Positions 51,396 through 60,977 of a stretch of DNA of 64,000 bases are shown piece by piece. The DNA is taken from NCBI RefSeq assembly GCF_009857845.1, contig NZ_WWEQ01000007.1, forward strand, positions 1 through 64,000, in the 5' to 3' direction. Each line of letters opens with the position of its first letter. The first letter of the stretch is position 1. The notes under the pieces are model-generated. The model ran no database searches. It was not told the DNA's origin and saw only the letters and a list, made by a program, of their open reading frames with translations. The stretch is from Brevibacterium rongguiense. GTDB lineage: Bacteria; Actinomycetota; Actinomycetes; Actinomycetales; Brevibacteriaceae. The translations under genes were made by a program, and so were the position numbers.

Positions 51396-52529
51396 TCAGT
51401 GAGCGAGCAGCGCGGCGAGCACCTCGCCCACCGCGTGCGATTCCGTGAGGAAGCCGTCGTGGCCGGCGGCGGTGGCGATGAGCGCGTAGTCCACCCGGCC
51501 GGGCAGCGCCTGGGCGAGCTGCTCGACCTGGCCCGGCGGGTAGAGCCGGTCGCTTGACAGGGCGGCCACGGAGAACCGGCAGCGCGCGCCGGCCAGTGCC
51601 TCGGCGAGGTCGGCCGAGCGCCCGCGGCGCACATCGTGATCGCGCAGCGCGGCCGTGAGCACCGCGTAGGAGTTCGCATCGAAGCGGGCCACGAGCTTGT
51701 TCGCCTGATAGTCGAGATAGCTCTCGATCGCGTAGGCGCCCGGCGCCCCGGCCCCCGCACTCGGAACGGCCCCTGCGCGCGCACCCGCCTCCGCGCTCGC
51801 ACCGGGCTGGAGGTCGCGACCGAAGCGCTCGTTGAGGTCCGCGTCCGCCCGGTAGGTGAGGTGGGCGATCTGGCGGGCGAGGCCCAGCCCGGCGGCCGGG
51901 CACCGGCCGAGCGCCGCGTAGTCCCCGCCGCAGTAGTCGGGGTCCATGCGAATCGCGCGGAGCTGGGCGTGGGCCCAGGCGATCTGGTCGGCCTGCGAGT
52001 AGGCGGGTGCGGCGAGGATCCCCGCCCGCGCGACCCGCTGCGGGGCGAGCAGCGCGAGCTCCAGGGCGCGGGCGCCGCCCATCGACCCGCCGATCACCGC
52101 GTGCCAGCGCTCGATGCCCAGCGCATCGGACAGGGCGAGCTCCGCGCGCGCCATGTCCCGGATGCCCACGCGGGGAAAGCGCGAACCGTAGGGCAGCCCG
52201 TCGGCGGCGGTGCTCGCGGGGCCCGTGCTCCCGGAGCAGCCGCCCAGCGTGTTGGCGCACACGACGAAGAACTCGTCGGTGTCGATCGCGCGGCCGGGGC
52301 CCACGACGGCCTCCCACCACCCCGGCGCGAACGCCCCGCTGCCGTCCACGCCCGCCGAGGCCACGTGCGAGTCGCCGGTGAGCGCGTGCTCGACGAGCAC
52401 GGCGTTCGTGCCCGCCGCATTCAGGCGCCCGTAGGCCTCGTAGGCCAGGTGGACGGCCGGCAGCCGCTGTCCCGATTCGAGGCGGAACGCGCCGAGGTCC
52501 ACGGCGGAGGTGTGCACACTCAGTGCCAT
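51396..52529 (-). CDS. metX: Homoserine O-acetyltransferase MetX
   Basis: A 377-residue alpha/beta hydrolase-fold acyltransferase. HALTGDSH near the N-terminus, the nucleophile Ser in GGSMGGARALE, Asp in SSDRLYPP and His in AGHDGFLTE complete the triad. It acetylates homoserine for methionine synthesis. A short Ala/Gly-rich insertion (GASAEAGARAGAVPSAGAGA) sits in the lid region. It follows metY by 5 bp in the same operon. Confidence 0.94.
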   Translation of the reverse strand: MALSVHTSAVDLGAFRLESGQRLPAVHLAYEAYGRLNAAGTNAVLVEHALTGDSHVASAGVDGSGAFAPGWWEAVVGPGRAIDTDEFFVVCANTLGGCSGSTGPASTAADGLPYGSRFPRVGIRDMARAELALSDALGIERWHAVIGGSMGGARALELALLAPQRVARAGILAAPAYSQADQIAWAHAQLRAIRMDPDYCGGDYAALGRCPAAGLGLARQIAHLTYRADADLNERFGRDLQPGASAEAGARAGAVPSAGAGAPGAYAIESYLDYQANKLVARFDANSYAVLTAALRDHDVRRGRSADLAEALAGARCRFSVAALSSDRLYPPGQVEQLAQALPGRVDYALIATAAGHDGFLTESHAVGEVLAALLAH

Positions 52530-52534
52530 GGAAC

Positions 52535-53845
52535 TCAGCCGCGGGCGGCGGCGAAGCCCTTCTCGAGGTCGGCGATGAGGTCATCGGCCCCCTCGAGGCC
52601 CACCGAGAGCCGCACGAGCGCCGGGGTGACCCCGGAGGCCGCCTGCGCCTGCTCCCCCAGCTGGGAGTGGGTGGTGGAGGCGGGGTGGATGACGAGCGAG
52701 CGGGTGTCGCCGATGTTCGCGACGTGGGAGTGCAGCTCGAGCGCGTCGACGAAGGCCACCGCGGCGTCGTAGCCGCCGGCGATCTCGAAGGCCAGCACCG
52801 AGCCGACGCCGCGGGGCAGGTACTTCTGCGCCAGGCCGTGCCACGGGCTCGAGGCCAGCCCGGCGTAGTTGACGGACTCCACCTGCTCGTGGGCCTCGAG
52901 GTAGGCCGCGATGCGCTCGGCGTTGGCGACGTGGCGCTCGATGCGCAGGCTCAGCGTCTCGAGTCCCTGGCTGAGGAGGAACGCGTTGAACGGCGAGGCG
53001 GCCGGCCCCAGGTCGCGCAGCAGCTGGACGCGGGCCTTGATCGCGTAGGAGACGTTGGCCCCGAACGCGGAGTCGGCGCCCAGGTCCCGCCCGAAGACGA
53101 TGCCGTTGTAGGACTCGTCGGGCGTGTTGAAGCCCGGGAACTTCTCCGGCTCGGCCGTGTAGTCGAAGTTGCCCGAGTCCACGATGACCCCGGCGATCGC
53201 GGTGCCGTGGCCGCCCAGGTACTTCGTGGCCGAGTGGACGACGACGTCCGCGCCGTGCTCGATGGGCCGCACGAGGTACGGGGTGGCCAGCGTGTTGTCG
53301 ACGATGAGCGGCACGCCCGCCTCGTGGGCGATCTGGGCGACGCCCGCGATGTCGAGGACGTCGGAGCGCGGGTTGGACACGACCTCGCCGAAGAGCGCAC
53401 GGGTCTCCGGCCGCAGGGCGTCCCGCCACGCCTCGAGGTCACTGGGGTCTGTCACGAACGTCGTCTCGATGCCGAGCTTGCGCAGCGTGACGTCGAGGAG
53501 GTTGTACGTCCCGCCGTAGAGGCTGGGGCTCGCCACCACGTGGTCGCCCGCGCCCAGGACGTTGATGAGGGCGAGGAACTCCGCGGACTGGCCCGAGGCG
53601 GTCAGCACGGCGCCCACGCCGCCCTCGAGGTCCGCGATCCGGTTCTCCACCGCCTCGAGCGTCGGGTTGCCCAGCCGGGAGTAGATGGGCCCGAGGTCGG
53701 CCAGGGCGAACCGGTCCGCGGCGGTCTGCGCGGAGTCGAAGACGAACGAGGTCGTCTGGTAGATGGGCAGGGCGCGCGCCCCGGTGGCGGAATCGGGCTC
53801 CTGGCCCGCGTGGATCTGGCGGGTCTCGAAGGACAGGTCGCTCAT
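52535..53845 (-). CDS. metY: O-acetylhomoserine sulfhydrylase MetY
   Basis: A 436-residue Cys/Met-metabolism PLP enzyme. PLP Lys is in VVHSATKYLGGHG; YSRLGNPTLEAVENRIADLEGG (early) and STTHSQL (late) are family motifs. The length of about 436 fits MetY (sulfide-using) better than MetZ or MetB. It makes homocysteine from O-acetylhomoserine and sulfide. ATG 53845 is preceded by GAGGAG. The 5' region contains four phased GTCA sites. No SAM riboswitch is visible upstream. Confidence 0.94.
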   Translation of the reverse strand: MSDLSFETRQIHAGQEPDSATGARALPIYQTTSFVFDSAQTAADRFALADLGPIYSRLGNPTLEAVENRIADLEGGVGAVLTASGQSAEFLALINVLGAGDHVVASPSLYGGTYNLLDVTLRKLGIETTFVTDPSDLEAWRDALRPETRALFGEVVSNPRSDVLDIAGVAQIAHEAGVPLIVDNTLATPYLVRPIEHGADVVVHSATKYLGGHGTAIAGVIVDSGNFDYTAEPEKFPGFNTPDESYNGIVFGRDLGADSAFGANVSYAIKARVQLLRDLGPAASPFNAFLLSQGLETLSLRIERHVANAERIAAYLEAHEQVESVNYAGLASSPWHGLAQKYLPRGVGSVLAFEIAGGYDAAVAFVDALELHSHVANIGDTRSLVIHPASTTHSQLGEQAQAASGVTPALVRLSVGLEGADDLIADLEKGFAAARG

Positions 53846-53913
53846 GAGGGGCTCCTCGCTGTGGCGGTGTGGCTTGGGCTGCGGCACGCGGATGCGCGTG
53901 CCCGACACCACGC

Positions 53914-53919
53914 ACGCTA
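53914..53919 (-). promoter_or_regulatory. Putative -10 of metY-metX
   Basis: TAGCGT on the minus strand, giving a leader of about 60 nt. A clear -35 is not seen, in keeping with an activator-dependent promoter. Confidence 0.4.
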
Positions 53920-53950
53920 GGAGAGGCCGCCGAGGCGCCCCGGCGGGTTC

Positions 53951-53985
53951 GTCATGCGCGCGTCACCGGGCGTCATGGGGCGTCA
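53951..53985. promoter_or_regulatory. Four helically phased GTCA sites upstream of metY
   Basis: GTCA begins at 53951, 53962, 53972 and 53982, i.e. spacings of 11, 10 and 10 bp. The repeated unit is about GTCAYSGGGC. Relative to the putative -10 the array lies at about -45 to -78, on one helix face, as expected for cooperative binding of an activator. Confidence 0.6.
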
Positions 53986-54054
53986 CAGGGGCGGGCGCCG
54001 GGTTTGCGCCCTGCCGGGTGCGGTGGAGCTCGGGTGAACCGGCCGGGCGGGGCC

Positions 54055-55014
54055 TCAGAAGAGCCAGACGAGCATGCCGGCGTAGGAGCGCCAGGGCCGG
54101 CAGCCCTCCGCGTCGATGCCGCGCAGGTACATGTCCCCGCCCAGCCACACGTCCGGGTCGCGCAGCAGGCGCATGCGCACGTAGCCGGCGCTCCACTCGC
54201 CCACGCCCGCATAGGCGCTCAGCGCGGCGGCCGGGTCGTCCGCGCTCGCGTCCGCTCCTGTCGATCGTGCACCGGACTCCAGGACCAGCCGGCCGGCGGC
54301 GAGGTCCGCGGCGAGCGCGCGGATCGCCTCGGTGCTGCGGGCCGGCAGGCGCAGGGGGCGAGCGGGATCGGGCTTGCCGGGCACGGCCGGTGGGATCCCC
54401 TCGGCCAGCTGGGCGGCGGTGGGGACGAGCACGCTGAGCCCCTCGAAGGCGCTGGCGGAGCCCCCGGGCCGGTAGGGGGTGCCGAGGTGCTCGGCGGCCT
54501 CCCCCAGGTAGCCGACGGCCCGGGCCACGGCGATCTGCTGCCCGCTGATCGCGCGCAGCAGGGCCTCGGGCGCATCCGGGATGCCGGGCACCCTCACGCC
54601 CGGCCGCGCGGCGATGGCCTGCGCGGTGAGCGGATTGCCCGCCAGTGCGGCGCCCACCGCCGCCGGGTCCGTGTCGAGGTCGAACAGGGCGCGCACGGTG
54701 GCCAGCGCGGCATCCGCGTCGTCCTCGCGGGCCAGCTCCAGGCGGGCGCGGGCGGCCCAGCGCTGGGTGGCCGGTGCCTCGGCGGCCGGCGCGTGCGCTG
54801 CCGTCACCTGCGCTGCGGGTGTGCGCGGCGCCGGCGCGAAGGTCACCTCGCAGGCCCCGGGGCCGCCCGGCAGGTGGAGCGTGCGGGCGTAGCGCAGGCG
54901 GCCGCCCGGCAGCCGCTGCGCGTGCTCGACACCGCGGATCGCGCGGTGGGACAGGAAGGCGAAGACACCGGGGGCATCGTACGGGGCGGGCAGTGCGAGG
55001 TCGCGCTCTTCCAT
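54055..55014 (-). CDS. DNA-3-methyladenine glycosylase, AlkA-like
   Basis: A 319-residue base-excision glycosylase. An AlkA_N-like N-terminal domain (to about residue 115) precedes an HhH-GPD domain: LRAISGQQIAVARA, then YAGVGEWSAGYVRMRLLRDPDVWLGGDMYLRG, with the catalytic Asp in GGDMYL. It excises alkylated purines. No Ada domain is fused. TAGGGT-N7-ATG suggests a leaderless start. An Ala/Pro-rich insertion sits around residues 60-85. Confidence 0.85.
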   Translation of the reverse strand: MEERDLALPAPYDAPGVFAFLSHRAIRGVEHAQRLPGGRLRYARTLHLPGGPGACEVTFAPAPRTPAAQVTAAHAPAAEAPATQRWAARARLELAREDDADAALATVRALFDLDTDPAAVGAALAGNPLTAQAIAARPGVRVPGIPDAPEALLRAISGQQIAVARAVGYLGEAAEHLGTPYRPGGSASAFEGLSVLVPTAAQLAEGIPPAVPGKPDPARPLRLPARSTEAIRALAADLAAGRLVLESGARSTGADASADDPAAALSAYAGVGEWSAGYVRMRLLRDPDVWLGGDMYLRGIDAEGCRPWRSYAGMLVWLF

Positions 55015-55101
55015 GGGGTGGACCCTAGCGGGTGCCCGCCCACGGGTGCGCGTCCGCGAGCGTCTCGGCCCCGCGGATGGGGGCGGGGCAGGGTGGCGGG
55101 T

Positions 55102-55575
55102 TCAGAGGGGGCGCTTGAATCCCGTGTGGCTGGCCGCGTAGCCCAGTGAGGCGTAGAAGCGGTGGGCCCCGGTGCGCGTGGCATCGGAGGTCAGCTGGGC
55201 GAGCACCGCACCGTGCCGGCGGCCCCAGGCGTGTGCCCAGTTCAAGGCGGCGGTGCCCAGGCCCGTGCCGCGGACGCCCGCGGCGAGCCGGACCGCCTCG
55301 ATCTGCAGCCGCGTGGCGCCGCCGCGCGCCAGACCCGGGATGAGCGTGAGCTGCAGGGTGCCGCAGACGTCCCCGCCCTCGTCGGCGATCACGAGGAGCA
55401 GCTGCTGGGGGTCCGCGTCGATCCGATCGAACGCGGCGAGATACTGCTCCCGGTCCGCGGTCTCGCGCTCGCGGCCGAGCGGGTCGTCGGCCAGCAGGGC
55501 CACGATGGCCCCCACATCGTCGCGCCGGGCACGGGCAAGGGCGAATGCCCGCCCATCGGCCGTCAGCTGCTCCAT
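55102..55575 (-). CDS. GNAT-family N-acetyltransferase
   Basis: A 157-residue GCN5-type acetyltransferase. The acetyl-CoA P-loop reads VRGTGLGTAALNWA, and RTGAHRFYASLGYAASHTGFKRPL is the usual end. The substrate is unknown (small molecule or protein N-terminus). It is a single-gene unit between alkA-like and dnaE2 with no overlap. Confidence 0.9.
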   Translation of the reverse strand: MEQLTADGRAFALARARRDDVGAIVALLADDPLGRERETADREQYLAAFDRIDADPQQLLLVIADEGGDVCGTLQLTLIPGLARGGATRLQIEAVRLAAGVRGTGLGTAALNWAHAWGRRHGAVLAQLTSDATRTGAHRFYASLGYAASHTGFKRPL

Positions 55576-55656
55576 GGCCCCATGATCGCAGGCCCCTGAT
55601 CGCAGCCGCGGAGGCGTTCGGCCCCACCGCGCGGGCTCGGGTGCGCGGCCCGGCGC

Positions 55657-58600
55657 CTACCGGAAGTTGCGCGAGGCCACGGGCAGTTCGACGTCGAGCG
55701 GCACGAGCTTGTGCGCGTAGAGGCTCACGACCTCGCCGGCGCGCTGGAGCAGGCCCGTGACGACGAGCGTGGCGCGGGTGAGCGAGATGGGAGCGAAGCG
55801 CTTCATGAGCCCCGGGCTGCACACGACGTTGAGCATCCCGAACTCGTCTTCGATGTTCATGAACGTGATCCCCGAGGCGGTCCCGGGCCGCTGACGGTGC
55901 GTGATGATGCCGGCCACGGTGATCCGTTGGCCGTCGGACGCCGCGCGGGCGTCCGCGGTCGAGGCGTACCCCCGGGCCCGCAGCGCCCCGCGCAGCTGCT
56001 GTGTGGGGTACCCGTCGACCGTGAGGCCCGTGGCGAAGAGCTCCGCGAGTGTGACGTCGAAGGCGCCCATGAGCGGCAGGGCGGGCGCCGTGTGGACGGG
56101 CGAGGTGCCCGGCAGGGTCGCCGGCCCGGCCCCGGAGAGCGAGCCGGCGAGCCACAGGGCCTGCCGGCGGTCGAGCCCGAAGCAGTCGAATGCGCCCGCC
56201 GTGGCCAGGGCCTCGAGCACGCGCACCTCGACCCCGGTGCGCTGGGCCACGTCCTCGACGCTTCCGTAGGCGCCGTGGGCGCGCTCGGCGACGAGCGCCT
56301 CGGCGGCATCGCCCACGCCCTTGACCGCGCGCAGGCCGATCCGGATGGCGAACCCGCCCGTGGAGTCCGGGTCCGGTTCGAGGTCCGCCTCCTCCTGGGA
56401 GCGGGCGATGTCGACGGGCCGGATGCCCACGCCGTGGCGGCGGGCGTCCGCGATGAGGGACTGCGGCGAGTAGAAGCCCATGGGCTGGCTGCGCAGCAGG
56501 CCGGCCGTGAACGCCGCGGGGTGGTGGCGCTTGAACCAGGCGGAGTCGTAGACGAGGTTGGCGAAGCTGATCGCGTGGCTCTCCGGGAAGCCGTAGTTGG
56601 CGAACGCCGCGATCTTGCCGAAGATGACCTCGGCGAGCTCGGGTCCGATCCCCCGCTGGGCGCAGCCCGCGTCGAAGCGCTCGCGCAGCGCCTTCATGCG
56701 CGCCTGGGAGCGCCGCGAGCCCATGGCCCGGCGCAGCTCGTCGGCGTCCGCCCCGGAGAATCCCGCCACGTCGATCGCCATCTGCATGAGCTGCTCCTGG
56801 AACAGCGGCACGCCCAGCGTCTTGCCGAGCGAGGACTCGAGCGCGGGGTGGAGGAAGTCCACGGGCTCCTCGCCCTGGCGCCGGCGGATGTAGGGGTGGA
56901 CGGAGCCGCCCTGGATGGGGCCGGGGCGGATGAGCGCCACCTGCACCGCGAGGTCGTAGAAGGTGCGCGGGCGCAGGCGCGGCAGTGTGGCCAGCTGGGC
57001 GCGGGACTCCACCTGGAAGACGCCCACCGCATCGGCCGCGCACAGCATGTCGTAGACCTCCGGGTCCTCCTGCGGGATGGCGGGCCGCTCGATGCGCTCT
57101 CCGGTGTGCGCGGCGACGAGGTCGACCATCTCGTGCAGCGCGCCCAGCATCCCCAGGCCCAGCAGGTCGAACTTCACGAGGTTCATGGCCGCGCAGTCGT
57201 CCTTGTCCCACTGGACGACCGTGCGGTCCTCCATCGTGGCGGGCTCGATGGGCACCACCTCGCCGATGGGCCGGTCCGCGAGGATCATCCCGCCGGAGTG
57301 GATGCCCAGGTGGCGCGGGGTGCCCAGGAGCTCCCCGGCGAGGTCGAGGACGGGGGCGGGGACGTGGGTCTCCGCGGGCTCCGGCAGGCTCGACCAGCGC
57401 GCGAGGCCCTTGGAGAACGCGTCCTGCTGGCCGGGGTCGAAGCCGAGGGCGCCCGCGGCGTCGCGCACGGAGGACTTGGCGCGGTAGGTGATGACGTTGG
57501 CCACCTGGGCGGCGCGGTCGCGGCCGTAGTGGGCGTAGGTGTACTGGATGACCTCCTCGCGGCGGGCGGACTCGATGTCGATGTCGATGTCCGGATAGCC
57601 CTCCCGCTCCGGGGAGAGGAAGCGGTCGAAGAGCAGCCCGAAGCGCACGGCGTCGACCGCGGTGATCCCCAGGACGTAGCAGACGGCGGAGTTCGCGGCC
57701 GAGCCGCGGCCCTGGCAGAAGATGTCGTTGTCGTGGCAGAAGCGGGCGATGTCCCAGACGATGAGGAAGTAGCCGGCGAAGCCCATCGCCTCGATCGTGG
57801 CGAGCTCCCGGTCGAGCAGCGCCCAGGCGTCCGGGCGTCCGGCGCGGTCGCCGTAGCGGCGCAGGGCCCCGGCGGCGACGAGCTCGCGCAGCCGCTCCAT
57901 CTCATCCGCCCCCTCCGGCACGGGTGCCCGGGGCAGGCCCGCGCGGGCGGCCGTGAGCTCGAACGCGCACTCGGCGGCGAGGCGGGCGGCCGCGGCGACG
58001 GGCTCCGGGCCGAAGCGCTGGACCATCTCCTCCGGCGTGTGGATGCGCCCGGCCGCGGCGGGCGGCAGCCAGCCCGCGAGCTGTTCGAGCGAGCGGTGGG
58101 AGCGGATCGCCGCGCGCAGCTGGGCGCCGCGGAACTGGGCGTGCCCGGCGTAGTGGACGGCATTCGTCGCCACGGCGGGCAGGTCGCAGCGGGCCGCGAG
58201 CTCGCGCAGGTGGGCGATGCGCTCGTCATCGCGCGGGTCGCCGGTGCGGGTGAGCTCGACGGCGACCCGGTCTGTCCCGAAGAGGTCCGTGAGCCGCCGC
58301 AGCGCGCCCAGCCCGCCGTCCGGATCGCCCAGGCGGGGCAGGAGGGGTCCCTTGCGGCAGCCGGTGAGGATGAGCCAGTCGGCGCGCTGGGCAGCGAGGG
58401 ATTCGAGGTCGAAGACCGGGCGGTTCTTCTCCCCGCGCTGATTGCCCGCGGTGATCGCGGCGGACAGGGCGCGGTAGCCCTCCACACTGCGGGCGAGCAC
58501 GAGGAGGTGCTCGGCGGCCGGGTCCACCTGGCCGGGGATCCGCTCGGCCAGCCCCAGGGAGAGCTCCGCCCCGTAGACGGTGGGCAGGCCGCGCGCGGCC

Positions 58601-59310
58601 GCGCGCTGGGCGAAGCGGACGGCGCCGTAGAGGCCGTTGTGGTCTGTGAGCGCGAGCCCGGACAGCCCCGCATCGGCCGCCGCATCGACGAGGTCCTCCG
58701 GTTCCGAGGCGCCGTCGAGGAAGCTGAAGTCCGAGTGCGCGTGCAGCTCCGCGTAGGCGATCGCGGGGGCCGCGTGCCGCGGGGTGGGCACCGGGGCACT
58801 GCCGGCGCCCGTGCTCTCGGGGGCCGCCGGGGCCGGCCGCGCACCGGGGCCGACAGAGCGCCCGGGCCCATCGGAGCCCCTCGGCCCCACGGAGACCGGC
58901 GGGGGCACCGCGGCAGGAGCGGCGCGGTGCGCGGGGGCCGTGCGGGCGGCGGTGGTCGGCTCGTCCTCGTAGCGCCGGGGCGCGCTCTTGCGGTCGGCGA
59001 TGGGTGCGGGCTGCCCGGTGTTGGACTGCTGCCGGGAATTGGGCTGCTGCCGGGAGTCGGACTGCTGCGGGGGCGGGCTGGGCCGAGCGGCCGGGGCATT
59101 GGCCTGCCCGCCGGCGCGCACCTCGGCCCCGGGATGCGCCTGTCCCCCGGTGGGATCGGCCTCTCCCCCGGTGGAATCGGCCTCGGACCCTGCCCCGGGC
59201 TCGGTCCTGCGCCGGGCGCCGTTGTGCCGCGTGCCCGCGGGCGCGGGCTTGGCCGAGAGCCGCCGCTCGAGCTCCGACCACGTGGTGCGCGGGTTGAAGA
59301 AGCGGCTCAT
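55657..59310 (-). CDS. dnaE2: Error-prone DNA polymerase III alpha subunit DnaE2 (ImuC)
   Basis: A 1217-residue C-family polymerase for damage-induced translesion synthesis. Residues 1-24 (FFNPRTTWSELERRLS) match the family start; residues about 25-182 are a Pro/Gly/Gln-rich low-complexity insertion; the PHP domain starts near 186 (ELHAHSDFSFLDG). The palm holds YPDIDIDIE, followed by fingers, an HhH domain and a C-terminal OB fold (ITVAGIITHRQRPGTASGITFMNIED). The ATG at 59310 overlaps the imuB stop by 4 nt. Last gene of imuA'-imuB-dnaE2, under a LexA box. Confidence 0.95.
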   Translation of the reverse strand: MSRFFNPRTTWSELERRLSAKPAPAGTRHNGARRRTEPGAGSEADSTGGEADPTGGQAHPGAEVRAGGQANAPAARPSPPPQQSDSRQQPNSRQQSNTGQPAPIADRKSAPRRYEDEPTTAARTAPAHRAAPAAVPPPVSVGPRGSDGPGRSVGPGARPAPAAPESTGAGSAPVPTPRHAAPAIAYAELHAHSDFSFLDGASEPEDLVDAAADAGLSGLALTDHNGLYGAVRFAQRAAARGLPTVYGAELSLGLAERIPGQVDPAAEHLLVLARSVEGYRALSAAITAGNQRGEKNRPVFDLESLAAQRADWLILTGCRKGPLLPRLGDPDGGLGALRRLTDLFGTDRVAVELTRTGDPRDDERIAHLRELAARCDLPAVATNAVHYAGHAQFRGAQLRAAIRSHRSLEQLAGWLPPAAAGRIHTPEEMVQRFGPEPVAAAARLAAECAFELTAARAGLPRAPVPEGADEMERLRELVAAGALRRYGDRAGRPDAWALLDRELATIEAMGFAGYFLIVWDIARFCHDNDIFCQGRGSAANSAVCYVLGITAVDAVRFGLLFDRFLSPEREGYPDIDIDIESARREEVIQYTYAHYGRDRAAQVANVITYRAKSSVRDAAGALGFDPGQQDAFSKGLARWSSLPEPAETHVPAPVLDLAGELLGTPRHLGIHSGGMILADRPIGEVVPIEPATMEDRTVVQWDKDDCAAMNLVKFDLLGLGMLGALHEMVDLVAAHTGERIERPAIPQEDPEVYDMLCAADAVGVFQVESRAQLATLPRLRPRTFYDLAVQVALIRPGPIQGGSVHPYIRRRQGEEPVDFLHPALESSLGKTLGVPLFQEQLMQMAIDVAGFSGADADELRRAMGSRRSQARMKALRERFDAGCAQRGIGPELAEVIFGKIAAFANYGFPESHAISFANLVYDSAWFKRHHPAAFTAGLLRSQPMGFYSPQSLIADARRHGVGIRPVDIARSQEEADLEPDPDSTGGFAIRIGLRAVKGVGDAAEALVAERAHGAYGSVEDVAQRTGVEVRVLEALATAGAFDCFGLDRRQALWLAGSLSGAGPATLPGTSPVHTAPALPLMGAFDVTLAELFATGLTVDGYPTQQLRGALRARGYASTADARAASDGQRITVAGIITHRQRPGTASGITFMNIEDEFGMLNVVCSPGLMKRFAPISLTRATLVVTGLLQRAGEVVSLYAHKLVPLDVELPVASRNFR

Positions 59311-60977
59311 GCCCAGCGCCCCGTGATCGCCCACTGGCCCTGTTCCTTGGCCAGCAGCAGCGCTTCACCGGCGGCGGTGACCACCTGGAGGCGCACCCGA
59401 TACTGGCGGTACTCCGGCTCCCACCACATCGCCTCGACCGGCCAGCTCGACGAGTAGTCGATGACGGGCACCGAGCCGGCCTCGGGGATCGCCAGGAGCG
59501 CGGGCTCGCTGTCGAGGCCCGAAGGGCGGGCGATGACCGTGTGCCCGCGCGCATCGAGGAGGTCGACCGGCGTGTGCTCGACGAGCGTGGGCCGCGGGCT
59601 GGGCAGCTCACCGGGCCAGGGTGCATCGGGGTCGCGCTCAGGGTGCGGGGCCTGCCGCCACGGGGTCCACAGGTTCGTCTCCGCGGGCTCGCGCCCGCCC
59701 TGCAGGCCGGGCACCAGCACGGCATCGGCGCCGAAGAGGCCCTGGAGCCGCTCGAGCGTGCGCCCCACCTCGCCGGTCTGGGCATCGAAGAGGTTGTGCT
59801 GGGCCGCCAGCGGTTCGAGCAGCTCGGCGGCGACGATCTCGATCGCGGCGATGCCGTCCTCGGCGAGCTCCGCGGGAGCATCCCCGGGGTCCGGCTGGGC
59901 CGCCCCCACCGCGCCCGAGGCGAGCCAGCCCTCCGCCTGCCAGCGCGCCCGGTCCGCGAGCTGGGTCTCCTCCATGGCCTCCAGGCGCCAGGTGCGCGCG
60001 CTCACGTCCCCCGTCGCGGCGGTGAGCGCGATCGTCGCCTGTGCGCACACGAGCCCGGCCGCGCGGACCTGGGCGAAGAGCGCGGCGGCCGCCTGGCGGG
60101 CGCTGAAGGAGAGCACATCGGAGCGGGTGGAGGCGGGTTCGACTACGGTGCGAGCGGAGAAGTCGCGGGCGCGCACGTGGTCGACGGGCAGCCGGTCGCT
60201 CAGTCCCGAGGCCAGCCGGTGGGCGCGGGCGCCCACGGCCCCGAAGCGGGCGTAGACGTCCCCGCCGGGCAGGGCGGCGAGATCGCCCAGCCGGTCGAGG
60301 CCCAGCCTGCGGCACAGGGAGGCGAACTCGGCGAAGTCCGCATCGGCCTCCGTCAGCGCGGCGATCGGCTGGCCCGCAAGGTAGTCGGGCGTCTGCCCCG
60401 GGGGCACGCGCGTGGCCGTGCGGGCGGCCAGGAGCGCGGCGAACGCGGAGTCGGCGAGGCCTGCGAAGACCTCCCAGCCGGTCGCATCGGTCAGGGCGGT
60501 GAGGACAGCTTCGACCGCGGCCTCCTCGTCCGGGCACGTGCGCGCCAGGGCGGCCGCCGGCAGGGCCACCGTGCCGGGGGCCATGAGCGTGAAGCGGGCG
60601 ATGAGCCCCTCGAGGACTCCGATCCCCGCCGCAAACTCGCGGTGCTCGGCCTCGGTGTCGCGGGGCAGGGCGCGGGCGGCCGGGCAGCGGGTGCGCGCGG
60701 CGCGCTTGTTCAGCCCCACCTCCACGCCGGCCGCGCGGGCGGCGGCCGTGCAGGCGACCACCCGGTTGGCCGAGAGCGCGATGACGGGCTCGGCGGGCCC
60801 CAGGCCCAGGGACATGGCCAGGGCCGCCGCGGGCCAGTCCGGGACGGTGAGGATGAGCGTGCGCTGGGCCGCCGCGGCGGCGGGCGGGGGTGCGGTGAGC
60901 GCCGGTGGGGTCTCAGACAGCCCGGACCACCGCCTCGGCGGCTCCCGTGTCCGCGGGCAGCAGGAGGCGGTGGGCAC
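59307..60977 (-). CDS. imuB: DNA polymerase Y-family protein ImuB
   Basis: A 556-residue inactive Y-family polymerase that bridges ImuA', DnaE2 and the beta clamp. The Y-fold core (LTVPDWPAAALAMSLGLG to about residue 260) lacks the conserved acidic catalytic residues, as in all ImuB. A clamp-binding-like QHNLFDAQTGE follows near residue 395. The start is unsure: GTG 60977 lies inside imuA' (65-bp overlap) and no better ATG/GTG exists before the conserved core. It overlaps dnaE2 by 4 nt. Confidence 0.92.
   Translation of the reverse strand: MPTASCCPRTREPPRRWSGLSETPPALTAPPPAAAAAQRTLILTVPDWPAAALAMSLGLGPAEPVIALSANRVVACTAAARAAGVEVGLNKRAARTRCPAARALPRDTEAEHREFAAGIGVLEGLIARFTLMAPGTVALPAAALARTCPDEEAAVEAVLTALTDATGWEVFAGLADSAFAALLAARTATRVPPGQTPDYLAGQPIAALTEADADFAEFASLCRRLGLDRLGDLAALPGGDVYARFGAVGARAHRLASGLSDRLPVDHVRARDFSARTVVEPASTRSDVLSFSARQAAAALFAQVRAAGLVCAQATIALTAATGDVSARTWRLEAMEETQLADRARWQAEGWLASGAVGAAQPDPGDAPAELAEDGIAAIEIVAAELLEPLAAQHNLFDAQTGEVGRTLERLQGLFGADAVLVPGLQGGREPAETNLWTPWRQAPHPERDPDAPWPGELPSPRPTLVEHTPVDLLDARGHTVIARPSGLDSEPALLAIPEAGSVPVIDYSSSWPVEAMWWEPEYRQYRVRLQVVTAAGEALLLAKEQGQWAITGRWA

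Follow-up and report, generated by a model that had tools for sequence, protein, structure and literature searches.

MetJ represses methionine genes by binding cooperatively to the tandem 8-bp palindromic met boxes (AGACGTCT) that precede them. In Corynebacterium the sulfur genes are controlled by a transcription-factor network of McbR, CysR and SsuR, and the McbR operator is the palindrome TAGAC-N6-GTCTA. Direct repeats of the GT(C/n)A type are also found at the sites of GlnR, MtrA and PhoP, regulators that have other known regulons of their own. Brevibacterium is a cheese-ripening genus that makes methanethiol, and in B. aurantiacum the expression of metX, metY, metE1, metE2 and a cystathionine gamma-synthase gene reportedly falls with methionine, in work from 2011 by Forquin et al. 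PhoB sites consist of GTCA direct repeats 11 bp apart, e.g. TGTCATAAAACTGTCATA (PMC10294691), an MtrA site comprises two 7-bp repeats with a 4-bp spacer (PMC11215152), and in mycobacteria the cys operons have short ORFs, leaderless or upstream, that contain Cys codons (PMC1262725, PMC4633059).

The locus described here lies in a window of 64,000 nucleotides (the whole stretch of DNA that was analysed) from a Brevibacterium genome of 3.1 Mb. An earlier note on this DNA had claimed four GTCA sites in helical phase upstream of metY-metX, spaced at 11, 10 and 10 bp and placed at about -45 to -78 of a putative promoter without a -35 region, and had suggested that they might form an undescribed methionine or sulfur regulator site. 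The array was found as described: GTCA-N7-GTCA-N6-GTCA-N6-GTCA occurred once in the window (53951-53985, forward strand), with units that start at 53951, 53962, 53972 and 53982 and read as TGAC on the metY strand (Table 1), and this pattern gave no match in 100 dinucleotide-preserving shuffles. With a start point at about 53907 the array would occupy about -44 to -78, and no TTGACA-like -35 hexamer was seen on inspection of the metY promoter. Because it lies upstream of the predicted start point, the array would not be transcribed from the metY promoter, and a repeat acting in the RNA was ruled out on the same ground. The absence of a SAM riboswitch and of a McbR-type box, which had also been claimed, was upheld: Rfam detected no aptamer in 52000-56000, so that a riboswitch at metY was ruled out, and the McbR palindrome gave no match in the window at one mismatch or fewer. 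The Corynebacterium system, another actinobacterial case of sulfur genes under a network of transcription factors, differs in being made up of TetR and ROK proteins and in its box, of which no McbR-type copy was found in the window.

Table 1. Positions of the array, the predicted promoter element and the genes downstream of it in the window.
Feature	Position	Strand	Basis or remark
Operator array, four TGAC units, 10-10-11 bp towards metY	53951..53985	-	same architecture in 46/57 genus metY promoters
Unit 1, TGAC, farthest from promoter, context TGTGACGCCCCA	53982..53985	-	
Unit 2, TGAC	53972..53975	-	
Unit 3, TGAC	53962..53965	-	
Unit 4, TGAC, closest to promoter	53951..53954	-	
Predicted -10 hexamer TAGCGT, 31 nt past unit 4	53914..53919	-	nAnnnT at same offset in 45/46 exact-array genomes
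metY, O-acetylhomoserine/O-acetylserine sulfhydrylase, 436 aa	52535..53845	-	NCBIfam NF005872, 713 bits, cut-off 703; ORF
metX, homoserine O-acetyltransferase, 377 aa, next gene on same strand	51396..52529	-	NCBIfam NF001209/PRK00175, 427 bits, cut-off 331; ORF

Orthologous metY promoters, together with other sulfur genes, had been named in the earlier note as the places where its proposal could be refuted. The metY orthologues of 57 genomes of the genus were located, their upstream regions were read, and the array was found to be retained. All four units of the 10-10-11 frame were exact TGAC in 46 of them, and three of the four units were kept in nine more (G001, G008, G013, G015, G022, G025, G036, G054 and G055); fewer units remained in G033, which has one pair at 10 bp, and in G037. 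Eight genomes, seemingly of one clade, had shortened or rearranged arrays, which counts against the model developed below. Among the 46 promoters, which were chosen for exact TGAC, the bases between the units varied while TGAC was constant, with A or G preferred at the base ahead of each unit and G or A preferred behind it. A -10-like nAnnnT began exactly 31 nt past the last unit in all but one of these promoters (45/46; the next commonest offset was found in 16/46), and the hexamers at this position were GACAGT (29), GAGAGT (10), TAGCGT (5) and TAGATT (1). The closest MetY proteins among named relatives were those of Brevibacterium sp. CS2, B. luteolum and B. gallinarum (81-83% identical). 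An array of three units within 400 bp of metY was found at 7/7 loci from named Brevibacterium compared to 0/73 loci outside the genus. On sequence grounds, the metY array is a real and conserved operator.

Upstream of metY, on the same strand, window positions 54055-60977 hold what by eye is an AlkA-like glycosylase gene together with a DnaE2/ImuB-like pair of error-prone polymerases. The array follows the stop codon of the polymerase gene by only a few bases in several relatives.

A SAM-IV riboswitch was detected directly upstream of metY in 25 of the 41 non-Brevibacterium loci, out of 73, that were searched with Rfam; it precedes metY in Arthrobacter, Kocuria, Rothia and Knoellia, where it likewise controls the orthologous gene. 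Whereas that control operates at the level of RNA, Brevibacterium metY has a DNA array, and no Rfam aptamer was found upstream of metY in the seven named Brevibacterium loci searched. Absence of the riboswitch and presence of the array fit a replacement of RNA control by a DNA array in the Brevibacterium line, and the orthologous gene provides a clean case in which the riboswitch is absent and a DNA-level switch is present. SAM-IV riboswitches were also seen just downstream of metY, in L082, L096, L100, L103 and L109 and in the Arthrobacter loci L078, L079, L121 and L129, in the last four in addition to an upstream copy.

Similar arrays were found before metB, metF-metE and other genes when the remaining sulfur genes were checked for the motif, and these, together with the metY arrays across the genus, support the suggestion of a methionine or sulfur regulator site. 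In the genome of the window, GTCA-N6/7-GTCA-N6/7-GTCA occurred at just three places (five overlapping matches, compared to one for the reversed-pattern control), namely at metY, immediately in front of metB (C136:10123-10156) and where contig C135 ends; a strict search for three RTGACG units returned two perfect matches only, at metB and metY. With TGAC-N5/6-RTGAC-N5/6-RTGAC as the pattern, 18 genomes yielded 71 matches versus 2 for the reversed control and 26 further genomes 123 versus 11, and a slightly different form gave 53 versus 7 in 13 genomes; these counts score four-unit arrays twice and include a second motif with 11-11 spacing. Matches inside genes or before unrelated genes (e.g. 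L233, L236, L243, L254, L285, L286 and L303) were apparent chance occurrences and were left out of the regulon.

The third array of this genome (G000:C135:91897-91950; L042, L265) has by eye a 10-10-11-10 spacing, with TACGGT 32 nt behind it, and precedes a gene that is truncated where the contig stops (MDISAAGAPAPHPARTAPAPGPA...). This array may belong to the metF-metE promoter of this genome, because the contig that carries metE starts inside metF; no overlap between the ends of C135 and the metE contig was found. That this array precedes a truncated unknown gene, and that slippage can yield short GC-rich repeats, would suit a chance origin or a functionless local tandem duplication. Set against that origin, the pattern is missing from the shuffled sequences, three or four units persist in 55/57 genomes despite diverged bases between them, and arrays stand before other sulfur genes as well; genus-wide conservation refutes this explanation, the probability of which is practically negligible.

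The metB promoters were examined at 27 loci and tabulated for 25, with L315 and L335, whose upstream regions look coding, being dropped. In a five-unit 10-10-11-10 frame, two promoters had five exact units, 12 had four and 11 had only two. A -10-like hexamer lay at an offset of 41 or 42 nt in 22 of the 25 (the misfits were L327, L331 and L333), about one helical turn beyond the 31 nt of metY; the fixed helical phase upstream of the -10 that characterises activator-type sites was therefore found at both promoters. In the genome of the window the metB array is spaced 10-10-10, with TACCGT 42 nt past the last unit by hand count, and the automatic frame misfits this row. The metF-metE arrays (L171, L173, L176, L178, L205 and others) followed the 10-10-11-10 frame with one unit degenerate, and in L171 the -10-like hexamer was placed, by hand count, about one turn beyond the metY distance, as at metB. 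Of 30 metE-family loci 29 were read; the promoter in many lies upstream of metF, and the region just upstream of metE largely held no array in the loci read, except in G039. No array of three was found at the N-terminal metE-like genes L180-L182.

The other genes behind arrays were named by eye from their translations, and ten were then checked with NCBIfam, several of them falling below the cut-off. SfnG (573 bits, cut-off 383) and CysK (433 bits, cut-off 351) exceeded it, an SsuE-like protein scored 163.7 against a cut-off of 164.05, and TsuA/YeeE, SfnB/DszC, NirA/sulfite reductase, MetF, MetN, SsuB and homocysteine methyltransferase were below it. Named by eye only were OsmC-like proteins, MHS- and AAHS-type transporters, a rhodanese/metallo-beta-lactamase protein, a 2-oxoglutarate oxygenase, acyl-CoA ligases and a CoA transferase. 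The GTCA strip appears to be the docking site of a switch protein that runs sulfur metabolism across Brevibacterium.

In some species, arrays were also seen before acyl-CoA ligase, CoA-transferase and acyl-CoA-dehydrogenase-like genes (L206, L234, L238, L241, L244, L245 and L247). These genes may serve the catabolism of organosulfur compounds, e.g. of the DMSP or dibenzothiophene type.

Tandem boxes before met genes resemble the met boxes of MetJ, and the arrays could be read as repressor operators of a MetJ-like kind, with methionine or SAM as co-repressor. In a study in which B. aurantiacum was grown with H. alvei, metX, metY, metB, metE2, metNIQ and cys genes were down-regulated together, with sulfur amino acids seemingly more available (PMC6706770); low expression of met genes when sulfur amino acids seem plentiful would suit a repressor, and its direction also agrees with an operator that responds to starvation. 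The metY array is, however, situated upstream of the -10 rather than over it, and the arrays stand in a constant helical phase relative to the -10 (31 or 41-42 nt), with no -35. Furthermore, the Brevibacterium units are non-palindromic and recur at 10 or 11 bp, in contrast to the 8-bp palindromes of MetJ, and no tandem met box was matched in the window at three mismatches or fewer. Repression through these arrays is quite improbable.

A scan with PF00486 identified nine proteins in the genome of the window. One of them (G000:C99:32756-33544, reverse strand) adjoins upp and a weaker array match at C99:33762, and its orthologues in G013, G036, G037 and G055 likewise turned up as array neighbours; the protein was matched in 57 of 57 genomes of the genus. 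Its C-terminal winged-helix domain (Trans_reg_C, PF00486) scored 79.5 bits against a cut-off of 26.2. No receiver family was matched in Pfam at E values up to 1, and no Pfam family matched the N-terminal 100 or so residues; matches to response regulators in the PDB and NCBIfam were concentrated in the C-terminal domain, and even the longest began at residue 114. The solved domains nearest to the C-terminal domain were those of PhoB (E 8e-13), with an almost identical recognition helix.

The regulator genes were anchored by tblastn, and a GTCA pair at exactly 10 bp was found between upp and the regulator gene in 34 of the 36 genomes examined; the exceptions, G008 and G030, had one GTCA with near copies, and no other spacing exceeded 4/36. 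In the 32 genomes where it could be measured, the distance from the pair to the -10 (AAxAATGA) was 31, 40, 50-51 or 61 nt, in steps of about one helical turn. This array is inverted relative to its gene and when compared to the metY array, which counts against the candidate. The upp-linked orphan winged-helix protein is most likely the regulator that binds the arrays. Beyond what the earlier note had claimed, the metY array appears to be confined to Brevibacterium and phase-locked to its promoter, and to have a good candidate regulator.

Like the array, the E. coli pho box is built from GTCA direct repeats that share one face of the helix. Its period is 11 bp, as opposed to 10-10-11 at metY (46/57) and 10 bp at the regulator promoter (34/36), and the Brevibacterium arrays have four or five units with TGAC, not GTCA, on the strand of the target gene. 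The candidate differs from PhoB in having no receiver domain and in being associated with sulfur instead of phosphate genes; it would represent a response-regulator DNA-binding domain that serves nutrient sensing without a receiver domain. No such regulator was found in the accessible literature on Brevibacterium metY and sulfur control or on OmpR-type sulfur regulators, coverage that largely excluded subscription papers. The existing expression data on methionine and sulfur control in Brevibacterium can now be set beside an operator code with its regulon, a candidate protein and a proposed signal path.

The array in the regulator promoter would also be expected if the upp-linked gene is a mere member of the regulon and another protein, such as GlnR, a RegX3/PhoP-type response regulator, MtrA or a member of another family, binds the sulfur and methionine operators. 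MtrA, PhoP and GlnR use GTnA(C)-type half-site repeats about one turn apart that are similar to the array. Eight other PF00486 proteins are available in the genome, and at least one, L360, has a recognition helix very similar to that of the candidate (TRTVDVHVRRLR), while L359 has a related one; moreover, direct-repeat sites with a period of about 11 bp are described for MtrA (PMC11215152) and PhoB (PMC10294691). The Brevibacterium arrays have strict TGAC/GTCA cores and a 10-10-11 spacing. The period of MtrA sites is close to theirs, and it is sulfur genes that follow the arrays. Regulators of nitrogen, phosphate or the cell wall would not be expected to own met, cys and SfnG genes. A TGAC-N6/7-TGAC pair was found on neither strand at any of the eight other PF00486 loci, only the upp-linked gene having one, and this gene is tied to sulfur by a Cys leader peptide. 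Binding of the arrays by a different protein is considered unlikely.

The leader ORF starts right after the AAxAATGA -10 of the regulator gene in 34 of 36 genomes, and its absence from two (G022 and G025) counts against the model. It has approximately 17-38 codons, ends in [C/R]VR plus one to five residues, and contains two to four Cys codons, often as MCMPCVR. An 11-bp stem has the Cys-Val-Arg codons as its left arm; 93.7% of its cells were paired across 23 sequences, and four pairs were changed on both sides. None of 500 shuffles reached this paired percentage or the covariation score; 14 reached the count of doubly changed pairs. Folding of single sequences supported the stem, with z-scores of -0.6 to -4.5 in seven sequences, weak in several. 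Short ORFs with Cys codons are common to this system and the mycobacterial cys leaders, which precede enzymes and other operons and lack a conserved hairpin, whereas in Brevibacterium the leader is followed by a regulator gene and shares sequence with a covarying stem.

The array, its conservation, the regulon, the phase, the array at the regulator promoter, the leader ORF and the covarying stem were all read from the sequence, and from them we infer binding of the array by the upp-linked protein, activation as its effect, and a shortage of cysteine (or of cysteine and methionine) as the signal. The array would then be a sulfur- or methionine-starvation operator served by a PhoB-type activator that controls itself and is set by its Cys leader, which is the explanation that we consider probable. 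Each TGAC/GTCA would hold one winged-helix subunit of the OmpR/PhoB type, with neighbouring subunits lined up along the same face of the DNA, and the bound activator would recruit RNA polymerase to the -35-less metY-metX promoter; the regulator would also control its own gene via the GTCA pair. When charged Cys-tRNA is scarce, a ribosome would stall in the leader and the hairpin that overlaps the Cys codons would open, whereupon the regulator would be made and the sulfur genes switched on.

Regulator homologues were detected at E <= 1e-18 in 16 of 79 genomes from an even sample of the order: six in Brevibacterium, five in family f6, four in f19 and one weak match in f11. The array pattern was searched for in 16 genomes, including the ten non-Brevibacterium genomes with a regulator match. 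In two of the four f19 genomes (G076 and G107) an array, again inverted, was found approximately 360 bp ahead of the regulator homologue, and G107 also has an array upstream of a metY-family gene; the other two f19 genomes had no array at the homologue. None of the five f6 promoters examined had even a pair, and the existence of these homologues without an array counts against the candidate. Cys-rich upstream ORFs were seen before regulator homologues in the two other families (L400, L401, L403, L404, L405 and L407). Upstream of the f19 homologues the ORF reads MCCRMCR* or MCCRMCS*, and for two f6 homologues it reads MRCCRMHA*.

A broader proposal, to which we give slightly less than an even chance, is that Brevibacterium swapped the SAM-IV riboswitch for a genus-wide sulfur regulon in which a receiver-less PhoB-type activator acts on phase-locked GTCA arrays, a Cys-codon leader sets its dose, and the regulator with its Cys-rich leader is present in two other families of the order. 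If this is true, the whole regulon would take its input from the translation of Cys codons instead of from phosphorylation or a small-molecule ligand.

The second motif in Brevibacterium, TGAC-N7-TGAC(C/T/A)GAGTA(G/A)TGAC, has 11-11 spacing (L037, L038, L048, L058, L064, L218 and L266). By eye, it precedes exopolysaccharide sugar transferases, FemAB-like proteins and large LuxR-type ATPases, and it is probably the site of another regulator with a similar type of DNA binding.
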